64,000 nt of DNA, from the NCBI RefSeq assembly GCF_010093535.1, contig NW_022985222.1, positions 252,686-316,685 of the forward strand, read 5' to 3'. The notes under the pieces are model-generated. The model was given only the letters and a program-made list of their open reading frames with translations, did no database searches and had not been told where the DNA came from. Shown piece after piece: positions 25,386 through 40,470 of this stretch. Both the position numbers and the translations under genes were made by a program. Source of the stretch: Lindgomyces ingoldianus. Lineage: Eukaryota > Ascomycota > Dothideomycetes > Pleosporales > Lindgomycetaceae. Every line of letters begins with the position of its first letter. The stretch's first letter is position 1.

Positions 25386-27170
25386 TCAGGATGAAGAGTT
25401 CATCGTATCGAGAGAGTTCTCAACCTTGTGGACCATCCCAAAATCCGGCTCTGACACACGGCGCATTCCTGACGGCAAGCTTGGAGAGCTCCGGTTGAGT
25501 TTGAGCTTCTCCATGAGCTTGCCAATCATAACATACTCTTGAGGTTCAACAAATCCGCTCGGTTGTTGCTGGAAGAAACTCATAACGAGCTCCAATGCAC
25601 GACGCGCTTCTTCCTGAGACGGAGTAATGGGCGATGTAGTATCCATTCCTATTGAAGTTGATTGCGATAGAGACTGCTGCATCGGAATGCTAACCGGAGG
25701 GACCGCAGGAACAGGAGGCGGCTGCATCGTGGCAGAAACCTGGGTTGGCGATGCTTGCATCGCTTCTTCAACGGCGGCCAGGGATGGTCGCACATCACCC
25801 ATGGGAGACTCAAGCGCCGTGCTGTGAATATACTTCGGTGTTAGGGCGTCGGACGAGGGTGGTGGCGACATGTACTGCTCCACGCCGACAAGCATCGGGA
25901 ACGTTTGGCTTCGCGGTCGCTGAAAATTGCTGCTTCCAGGCTGTCCTCTGGCTTGCTGATGTCCAATAAAGGGGCTCGTTCCGCACGCTGAGTCGGGAGT
26001 GAAGAAGGGCGATGTGGGACTAGTAGCCCCTGCAGAGAAAGACGACGGAGCGGTGTCCGTAAACACGCTCGAAAGTGATGTGTTACTCTGAGAATGAAAC
26101 GGCCGATGATGATTTGAAAAGTCATAATTGTCAGGGCTTTCTGTCTTGAGGGAGAGATTCTCCTCGCTCTTCTTCAGGGTGATGGGCGAGGGGGACGCTA
26201 CCCCGCTCGGCGATGTCGGTGAGATGCCTCCAGGAGTGTGTGCGTTTGACGGCGGGTTCGAAGTACCTTCAGATTCCTCTGCTATTGAACTCTTCCTGGA
26301 TTTCGCACCCATGAGATTATTCTTTTGCTTAAATTTCTCGAGCCAGCTGGCGCTGTTCGCCTTCAGATGGCTCTCTGAGTTGCCCACTGTAGTCGCGAAG
26401 AATTTGGCCTTCTCTCGTATCATGGCATCATTTAAAGGCAGGCCTTGTCTCTGATGGTTTCGCGCCCAGTTCGAAAGTGCCCTCTCAATGTCAGGAAACT
26501 TGCCTTTGGACCTTTTGATGGGTGAACGGCTTCCGTCGTCCTGATACAGATACTTCTCTTTCTGGCGCAAGACCTTCGAAACGGTACTAGACAAAATCAA
26601 CAGACGGACATTTAAGATTGGATTGCATCGCAGTACCTTCTCTCCACACCGAACATTGCTGGAGGAGTGTTAATGAGCTGCTGATATTGGCTCAGAGAAG
26701 CGATAGAGCTTACCTCCGATCTCAGTCTGCTTTACTGTTGGATGCTCTTCATGGTAGAGACACATTCGCCTGCGATCCGAATCCGTCAGGGTCTTCCGTG
26801 GGGTGGATGAAGTGTGCGATCGGGTAGATGTCGCTGATACTGGGGTTGCGGATGCCGGCGTGATGGGCACCGGTGCTGAAGGGAATATGGGAGGAACATA
26901 GGTCGACTGGCTGGTCAACATGCTCGGCCATTGGGGCATAATCAAGGGTTGGAGTTGCGGATGAGTAGTCCTAGGTGGGTGCATGCCGGTGGTATAAAGC
27001 GGTTCCATGGGCAGCGGGGCATAGTTGTTGAAGCCATTGTAGTCTTGCACGGGCGACTGGTGGTGGGGATGGCTGTATGTGTTAGTCTCGGCCCAGTTCG
27101 AGTTGCTGTCGTCATAGGCCTGGTCCTGGTGGTGGTGATGCTGCTCGTGGTCCATTTGCAGCTGGCTCAT
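25386..27170 (-). CDS. CENP-B-type HTH DNA-binding protein
   Basis: Exons 27170-26714, 26658-26637 (22 nt) and 26586-25386 give 559 residues. Introns are 55 bp (GTAAGC...TCCAG) and 50 bp (GTACTG...TCTAG). The exon joins rebuild a helix-turn-helix from about residue 126: KTLTDSDRRRMCLYHEEHP, then TVKQTEIGAMFGVERSTVSK with VLRQKEKYL. It is followed by a CENPB-type second HTH: FPDIERALSNWARNHQRQG, LPLNDAMIREKAKFFATTV, and SASWLEKFKQKNNL. The N-terminus is His/Gln/Pro-rich and the C-terminal 300 residues are Ser/Pro-rich and probably disordered. The pair of HTH domains is shared with pogo-type transposases, but no DDE transposase domain is present, so this is probably a domesticated regulator acting in the nucleus. 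The start is the first ATG of a frame that is otherwise open. Confidence 0.85.
26637..26658 (-). other. 22-nt microexon of the CENP-B-type gene
   Basis: It encodes AMFGVER plus the first two bases of the next Ser codon, in the turn and recognition part of the HTH. Without it the frame is lost. Confidence 0.8.
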
Positions 27171-38630: not shown

Positions 38631-39490
38631 TGTCTCGTCGCTACCCCACGTTCGACGGTCACGAGTTTTCCATGGACTACCATGGCGGCTGGTCCAGGTG
38701 GTGTCACGGGGGGCATTGTCGCTCCCCAACTTTGACCATTCGGCTGCAAAGGAAGAAATATAATAGGAATGTGAGTGTTTTAAAACGACAGCTTGGAGTC
38801 TTGGACGATGCATTAGCCGTAAAGCTGCCCGGTGACTGCCCGTAGGGCTGTCCAATGTAATTGTCGACGTACCGCCCACTGAGAGAGTTACAAGCAGAAG
38901 GGCCGGCCATGTAATTGCCGGCAGGGACAAAAGCAGACGTAAGACGGATAGCTGAGGCAGACTATAGGAGCGTTAGAAAGCTTTGAGGAATGCGAACAAT
39001 CAGGAATACTGCATATTAGTACACAACATGGAACGTGACTAGGTTGTTAAACCTCTTGCTAAAATTAAGAAGAATGTTAATAGAATGCAAATTCCTAGCT
39101 TAAATCACTCTTGTTACTTGCTACGTTAGGCAATAAGATATAGTACAATGTTAGGATTGAAATAATTGCTTGCATTGATAAATGTGAACAAATATCTCTG
39201 AATCTTCAAACTTTTATTTCACTGTTGGGTTGTTGCTTCCCCGACTTGATCTACTTGGAATAACAATCTAGATATGGAGCGGGGATATGAAGTGACTACT
39301 TTGCGATCCTGCTAGAGTGGCTTCAGCCTTTGAGTTGGAGCAAAAGAGAAGGAGGATATTTGTCAATTTCTTTGAATCCGCAAAACAAAAAGAGGTTATT
39401 AGCGATAACCACCTTTATCTGCTTCTGAAATCAGGAAGGAATATCTTTTGGAAAGAGTTGGGAGAATAAAAAGACAAAAAAAGTGTTTCA
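38631..39490. other. Spacer before the tRNA gene
   Basis: AT-rich from 38940 on, with no gene. The run of seven T (minus strand) at 39476-39482 is treated as the tRNA terminator. Confidence 0.5.
39476..39482 (-). terminator. Pol III-type T7 terminator of the tRNA-Lys gene
   Basis: Seven T in a row on the minus strand begin eight nucleotides after the last tRNA base (39491). This is the normal signal and distance for RNA polymerase III release. Confidence 0.7.
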
Positions 39491-39505
39491 AGCCCGATGC
39501 GGGGG

Positions 39506-39556
39506 CTACGAATTGTTAGAAGACCGAAATAATGTTTAAGAATGATTTGTACTGAC
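39506..39556 (-). other. T-loop insertion of tRNA-Lys, spliceosomal-type intron
   Basis: 51 nt between positions 58 and 59, with donor GTCAGT, a TTCTAAC branch-like site and an ATTCGTAG acceptor. Removing it leaves the exact 7-nt T loop. Confidence 0.75.
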
Positions 39557-39577
39557 TCGAACCCGCAACCTTGAGAT

Positions 39578-39615
39578 TGCATGGGATCAATCGTTCTAAA
39601 GGAACGTGAATACTG
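39578..39615 (-). other. Canonical anticodon-loop intron of tRNA-Lys
   Basis: 38 nt between positions 37 and 38, the place where eukaryotic tRNA endonuclease introns sit. Its ends (CAG...GCA) are not GT-AG. Confidence 0.8.
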
Positions 39616-39639
39616 TAAGAGTCTCACGCTCTACCGATT

Positions 39640-39689
39640 CTGACAACATGTAAGAGTGTATTCGGGCATTGACGTAGTGTGAAACTTAC
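39640..39689 (-). other. D-arm insertion of tRNA-Lys, spliceosomal-type intron
   Basis: 50 nt between positions 13 and 14, with a perfect GTAAGT donor, CTTAC as a possible branch site and a GTCAG acceptor. The boundaries cannot be shifted by even one base without breaking the D arm. Confidence 0.75.
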
Positions 39690-39702
39690 GAGCTAACCGG
39701 GC

Positions 39703-40470
39703 ATTTACTGAATATTGAAGATGTTTAGAATTAATTGATTTATATACAAAAGCGACAGTAGACCCAAAAACCAATAGGTCCGGCTGCGCCGAGCTGAAGT
39801 CTAAAAAGCCGGCCGACCGTACCGCTCAACCCTCAGGCTCCAAACAAAGCCTGAATTTTGATCCCTGACTGTAGTTTATGTGCGGGGCTTCTCGTTGCAT
39901 GTCGGGTACTGTTCCATTTTGGGTCTAGCTTTGTTCGGTGTCCTTGTCAAAACCCCGAAACTACTCCAAACATCAGCAGGACCCATCTCAGCGCAATACA
40001 TCGAGCAGATCTCAGCATGTCGTGAATTATTCTAAATGATGACTGGGTGGCCACGTTGCCAGAACGCCCATCAAGGCTTGTCGAAGGAAGCCGGACAAAA
40101 GATATTAGCTCACCCTGCTCTCCTCACCACCCATTGGCGAAAAGGATTTAGATGTTTAGGACATCCTTAAGCAGGAATTTTTGAGCGAAGGGTTTACTCT
40201 GCAGGACTCCGAACCCTAAGAAATATAAAGATGAAATCAAGTCGTACACAAAGAACTTGGTTAACGGCAGCTCTCTTCATGAAGTCGACTCTTGCCAACT
40301 CGCCAATTGGCACTCCGCTGAAATCGACTGCACCCCTTCAAGCGATTTGCGAAGATGGCTCACAACCAATGGAGCAAGTTTCCACTTCACTTTTCAATCA
40401 ATAGACGAAACAGAAGAGTTACCGCAAGTGATGAGCACCGATATTGGAGACTTCGGTAATTTGCCGCCGA
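39703..40470. other. Spacer between the tRNA gene and the hAT-like element
   Basis: A plus-strand frame from 40257 runs into the element and has no recognisable content. Nothing else is seen. Confidence 0.4.

Follow-up and report, generated by a model that had tools for sequence, protein, structure and literature searches.

The window, i.e. the 64,000-nucleotide (nt) stretch of Lindgomyces ingoldianus DNA analysed here (part of contig C61 in an assembly of 68.4 Mb and 99 contigs), contains a nuclear transfer RNA (tRNA) gene, tRNA-Lys(CUU), that carries two inserts of spliceosomal form together with one of the ordinary tRNA type, and whose product very probably needs spliceosome and tRNA endonuclease alike. 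A published account places nuclear tRNA introns exclusively between positions 37 and 38 (37/38), red algae excepted (PMC3978253). Our partial survey of the same genome identified at least 17 tRNA genes that are interrupted elsewhere than in the anticodon loop, with 21 such inserts between them, and since these have the form of messenger RNA (mRNA) introns, the mRNA-splicing machine is likely to be needed for some tRNAs. The original prediction of an unusual tRNA gene that may need both spliceosome and endonuclease was confirmed as regards the gene, and is supported at the level of sequence by a paralogue and by 15 further tRNA genes besides this Lys pair; the state is genome-wide, and the interpretation as a single odd gene is rejected by the 17 genes of the survey.

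On the minus strand of the window (39702-39491), four exons of 13, 24, 21 and 14 nt join with the discriminator T to give the 73-nt tRNA-Lys(CUU) that had been predicted (Table 1), and the spliced product scores 27.0 or 27.5 in two scorings, compared with 24.6-27.5 for 28 out of 30 tRNAs reported by ARAGORN from the same genome (the other two being L010, which could not be parsed, and L024, which has an insert of its own and scored 22.6). The computed coordinates also bear out the predicted D-arm and T-loop insertions of 50 and 51 nt, with their GTAAGT and GTCAGT starts, CAG and TAG ends and internal CTTAC and CTAAC, these branch-like motifs ending 10 nt (insert 1) and 9 nt (insert 3) before the end of the insert. 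Insert 2 occupies the usual tRNA-endonuclease position, 37/38, with inserts 1 and 3 at 13/14 and 58/59; a removal scan blind to GT and AG locates insert 1 at 13/14 and insert 3 in the T loop. The further claim that only one D-arm boundary restores the fold had to be given up: removal of 51 nt scores as well as removal of 50 nt, and the T-loop boundary slides by a few bases, so that the fold alone does not fix the insert boundaries. The D-arm boundary is fixed instead by the paralogue, because the 50-nt removal matches the empty site there with 72/72 exon bases identical. Neither ARAGORN (bacterial settings) nor Rfam (gathering cut-offs) reported a tRNA in the window.

That paralogue (L002/L104, on contig C1) has an exactly empty D-arm site, insert 1 being wholly absent, so on this comparison the D-arm insert of the pair was gained or lost exactly. 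The anticodon-loop insert is 75% alike between the two genes, and the T-loop insert of the paralogue (GTGAGT..CTAAT..TAG) lies at the same position as insert 3 with an identity of only 57.7%, for which shuffles give a mean of 48.8% and a maximum of 57.9%; the flanks are 56-59% alike. As aligned, the exons of the Lys pair are held constant, whilst the inserts drift yet keep their splice signals. Conservation of the insertions, a point raised in the original prediction, takes the form here of unchanged exons and, in the T loop, of a GT-AG insert that has diverged in sequence but not in position. In the tRNA-Leu(AAG) pair, 81 of 83 exon bases are identical and the insert at 30/31 is 62% alike; a T-loop insert is present in one copy and exactly missing from the other. 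No exact match to Lys exon 2 was found in the viral and prokaryotic contig collections.

The survey drew on the Rfam tRNA model (best 63 of 3779 first-look candidates scored), on B-box patterns and on a pattern joining a B box to a 5' splice site, and the retrieved stretches were parsed either by the GT/AG-blind removal scan or by reading combined with a GT-AG script. Two interrupted genes each were found for Lys(CTT), His(GTG), Leu(AAG) and Glu(TTC), and one each for Leu(CAG), Glu(CTC), Gly(TCC), Thr(TGT), Ile(TAT), Ile(AAT), Ser(GCT), Arg(ACG) and Arg(TCT). Two inserts outside the anticodon loop occur in four genes, i.e. the window Lys gene, the Leu gene L107, Glu(CTC) and Arg(ACG). The tRNA-Glu(CTC) gene (L087, C38:569671-569856 with flanks) has its two GT-AG inserts around a 4-nt exon, CTAG. 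The same survey returned 33 tRNA genes without such inserts (29 and 4 more), including L046, which looks worn, and leaving out L101 (degraded) and doubtful ARAGORN calls in L052, L075 and L099; the ratio of interrupted to uninterrupted genes is not a frequency, because the survey was partial and partly biased to T-loop inserts. In L052 (C7, about 1699510-1700430) ARAGORN gives two tRNA-like genes, one with the anticodon TCA. Pattern hits that lacked a matching acceptor stem were discarded, namely 8 of 13 (L105, L106, L108, L111, L112, L114, L115 and L116) and, from the second pattern search, 4 of 5.

Outside the anticodon loop the inserts have a GT start in 20/21, an AG end in 21/21 and a length of 48-53 nt in 20/21 (86 nt in the remaining one), and over the whole set of 21 a branch-like motif falls 8-12 nt from the 3' end. 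A branch motif (CTNAY or TTAAY) lies 8-14 nt before the end in all 17 inserts of the first set, compared with 10% in shuffles, and the branch-like motif of the four inserts added later ends 12, 10, 11 and 9 nt before the end (the value of 12 being read by eye). When the inserts were shuffled and read in seven sliding frames, GT..AG with a branch motif appeared in a mean of 0.05 and a maximum of 2 out of 21 (2000 rounds), against 20/21 observed, and the control set of 24 anticodon-loop inserts, as parsed, gave no GT start, no AG end and one branch motif; a chance origin of the splice signals is rejected by both. In the GT/AG-blind scan, the GT-AG frame was among the best solutions or within 0.1 of the best for 15/21 inserts.

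Several points count against reading the inserts as spliceosomal introns on which tRNAs depend. The 30/31 insert of L107 (Leu(AAG), C8:354024-354207) begins GG, with branch motif and AG kept, and no GT-AG removal closes L084 or L082, so that 20/23 fit when both are included. The GT of the second L107 insert and of L109, L110 and L113 is not independent, because the search pattern required GTRNGT; without the four pattern-selected inserts the GT start stands at 16/17. Six of the 21 inserts (Thr, two Glu(CTC), two Arg(ACG) and the first of L107) were delimited by eye with the expected splice signals as a guide, and the neutral removal scan, which covered genes other than Thr, gave no GT-AG solution, or a poorer partial one, for those Glu(CTC) and Arg(ACG) genes. 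Two lengths, 52 and 48 nt, fit the Gly(TCC) insert, each with GT..AG ends. A test for the bulge-helix-bulge (BHB) motif has no power, because 0/9 anticodon-loop controls exceed shuffles, as do 0/21 inserts. An intact tRNA-Lys(CTT), L011, exists, and the window gene therefore need not be essential; more generally, the absence of intact copies is unproven, because the search for them missed the window's own gene and the Glu copy L046. As to the two loci that do not close, L084 (C36:258432) is a second tRNA-Asp copy whose T-stem insert has a GT start and CTAAC, with an A-run at its 3' end, and looks damaged, and L082 (C33:263763) is a tRNA-like gene in which the acceptor and T arm match around an insert of about 100 nt or more that has no GT-AG solution.

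Cutting of the inserts by the tRNA splicing endonuclease, as described for ectopic introns in the red alga Cyanidioschyzon merolae, is highly improbable as an alternative. The arrangement over D arm, anticodon loop and T arm does recall C. merolae tRNA-Ile(UAU), with introns at 12/13, 37/38 and 53/54 (PMC9602550), and the genes share with those of C. merolae an upstream TATA-like element and a downstream T-stretch (PMC9602550, PMC3978253). However, the C. merolae introns span 11-69 bp and carry BHB motifs for the endonuclease (PMC3978253), whereas those described here have GT, branch and AG at fixed spacing in 20/21 and a narrow length range that resembles fungal mRNA introns; the 24 anticodon-loop inserts lack GT and AG ends, and the BHB signal of the 21 does not rise above shuffles, although that of the controls does not either. 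Insert 2 and 23 other inserts of this genome lie in the anticodon loop, like ordinary 37/38 introns, and it is from these that the 21 inserts elsewhere differ, 20 of them with full splice signals.

The interrupted genes could also be decaying tRNA copies, hit by introns or short elements and never spliced or used, and damaged copies are indeed present, e.g. the first L107 insert with its GG, L084 without a usable 3' end, and L117 and L120, which look broken; the intact L011 points the same way. We nevertheless consider decay very unlikely to explain the set, as the Lys exons are identical at 72/72 bases while inserts and flanks are near background, and as all 17 spliced genes give a cloverleaf with the invariant bases and score 24.3-27.2, like ordinary tRNAs, albeit with inserts chosen to close the fold. 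Flanking signals are as frequent as at uninterrupted genes: a T-run within 16 nt follows 16/17 interrupted and 25/29 uninterrupted tRNA genes (random positions 5%), and a TATA-like element accompanies 14/17 and 22/29 (random window positions 4%). Several isoacceptors, moreover, lack an intact copy in a non-exhaustive search. An insert at 53/54 interrupts each of the two His(GTG) genes found, and in a search with twelve spliced tRNAs the matches listed included intact relatives of Lys(CTT) and Ser(GCT), whereas none was an intact gene for His, Leu(AAG), Leu(CAG), Glu(TTC), Gly(TCC), Thr(TGT) or Ile(TAT); if this holds, these tRNAs cannot be made without insert removal. Many intact tRNA-Lys(CTT) copies, which the original prediction had named as speaking against it, were not seen: the searches, likewise non-exhaustive, gave the intact L011 and the degraded L101.

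Eleven of the 21 inserts lie in the T arm (6 at 58/59, 3 at 53/54 and 2 within the T stem, counted by hand); the D arm and its border hold 6, the 30/31 site has 3 and the variable arm has 1. At 58/59 the GT of the insert extends GGTTCGA (GGTTCGA|GT), and TTCGA directly follows the closing AG of the insert at 53/54 (AG|TTCGA), so that 9-10 of 11 B-box positions remain. The best B-box match is 9-11/11 in 17/17 genes and the A box is 11/11 in 14/17, both counts being without shuffle control, and in the window gene both boxes are built partly of insert bases. The RNA polymerase III (Pol III) promoter may select the insert places.

As to the origin of the inserts, an unlikely source is a mobile introner family that is at present spreading through the genome; such an origin would be compatible with removal by the spliceosome. 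Introner-like elements have been reported in Dothideomycetes, and many unrelated tRNA genes hold inserts. Against it, genome searches with 15 of the 21 inserts (expect values up to 1) matched each of them only to itself, in a procedure that skips very common words and could miss a very abundant family; a family of recent repeat or introner copies was rejected, no near-identical copies being found for the 15 inserts tested. An old, diverged introner family could have escaped such a search.

Two known kinds of intron resemble those proposed here. As in the fission yeast U6 small nuclear RNA, an mRNA-type intron would be spliced from a small RNA made by Pol III (PMC10484740); U6, however, belongs to the spliceosome itself, and an event of reverse splicing close to its catalytic bases has been proposed (PMC10484740), whereas a tRNA is not a spliceosome component. 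No U6 intron was seen in this fungus among the 12 matches listed, which span 97-107 bases and are thus too short to contain an insert (best 47 of 4215 candidates scored). Eight of these 12 U6-like matches exceed the Rfam cut-off, and their scores differ. The other resemblance is to U2-type introns of fungal protein genes, which have the same signals and, judged by two introns of the DBP8 gene in the window, a similar length (GTATGA..TAG, 52 nt; GTAAGT..CTAAC..TAG, 60 nt); the DBP8 exons were located by tblastn and the intron boundaries by eye, and only these two mRNA introns were compared. Unlike such introns, those described here have as host a tRNA gene, with the promoter inside the transcript.

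Table 1. Coordinates of the tRNA-Lys(CUU) gene and its flanking elements in the window
Feature	Position	Strand	Description
TATA-like element	39741..39746	minus	TATATA at -44; promoter-like upstream element
Exon 1	39690..39702	minus	nt 1-13: acceptor 5' strand, positions 8-9, D-stem 5' strand
Insert 1	39640..39689	minus	50 nt, D-arm 13/14; GTAAGT...CTTAC (39654-39650)...CAG; spliceosomal form
A-box-like element	39635..39645	minus	TGTCAGAATCG, 10/11; end of insert 1 and exon 2; weak, best of ~80 positions
Exon 2	39616..39639	minus	D loop to position 37; anticodon CTT
Insert 2	39578..39615	minus	38 nt, anticodon loop 37/38; without GT/AG ends; boundary may slide 1 nt
Exon 3	39557..39577	minus	position 38 to A58
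B-box-like element	39553..39563	minus	GGTTCGAGTCA, 10/11; exon 3 and first bases of insert 3
Insert 3	39506..39556	minus	51 nt, T-loop 58/59; GTCAGT...CTAAC (39519-39515)...TAG; spliceosomal form
Exon 4	39492..39505	minus	end of T arm and acceptor 3' strand
Discriminator	39491	minus	base 73, T
T-run	39476..39482	minus	7 T, Pol III terminator-like, 9 nt past nt 72

To judge from its sequence, the host is a Pleosporales-like ascomycete; the closest named match of the DBP8 helicase in the window is from Massariosphaeria phaeospora (82%) and that of a VID24-like protein, also in the window, from Clohesyomyces aquaticus (82% over 80% of the query). The minus strand at 25386-26600 holds an open reading frame with a Tc5 transposase DNA-binding domain. 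Elsewhere in the genome, L033 (C67:242753-242906) is an AT-rich, divergent match to 5.8S, perhaps a mutated ribosomal DNA copy, for which repeat-induced point mutation (RIP) would be a guess.

In the mechanism that we propose, Pol III would make the tRNA precursor, the spliceosome would remove the introns of the D arm, anticodon stem, variable arm and T arm and so restore the tRNA fold, and tRNA endonuclease would then cut out the 37/38 intron. By analogy with C. merolae, where the introns of the D and T arms are reportedly removed ahead of the anticodon intron (PMC9602550), the same order is likely here. Inserts inside the promoter may persist at places where most of the B box is rebuilt from splice-site bases. 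Spliceosomal introns in tRNA genes have, in agreement with the original prediction, no described case that we could find in excerpts of the open-access literature (subscription journals and preprints lying outside this search); what appears to be new is their presence in a new class of host gene, and in many genes of one genome.

Should this account be correct, it breaks the rule that nuclear tRNA introns occur only at 37/38 and are cut by a dedicated endonuclease, shows short Pol III transcripts to be possible substrates of the spliceosome, and ties translation to mRNA splicing. A series of inserts in one structured RNA would offer natural material for the study of intron gain, tolerance and loss, and annotation programs can miss interrupted tRNA genes, as the silence of ARAGORN and Rfam in the window illustrates. 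We lean somewhat towards a wider reading, in which entire tRNA families, with tRNA-His foremost, have no genes other than those carrying spliceosomal introns, and in which the Pol III promoter has shaped intron settlement, with splice sites rebuilding the B box; translation in this fungus would then depend directly on the spliceosome, and mRNA splicing capacity and tRNA supply would be coupled.
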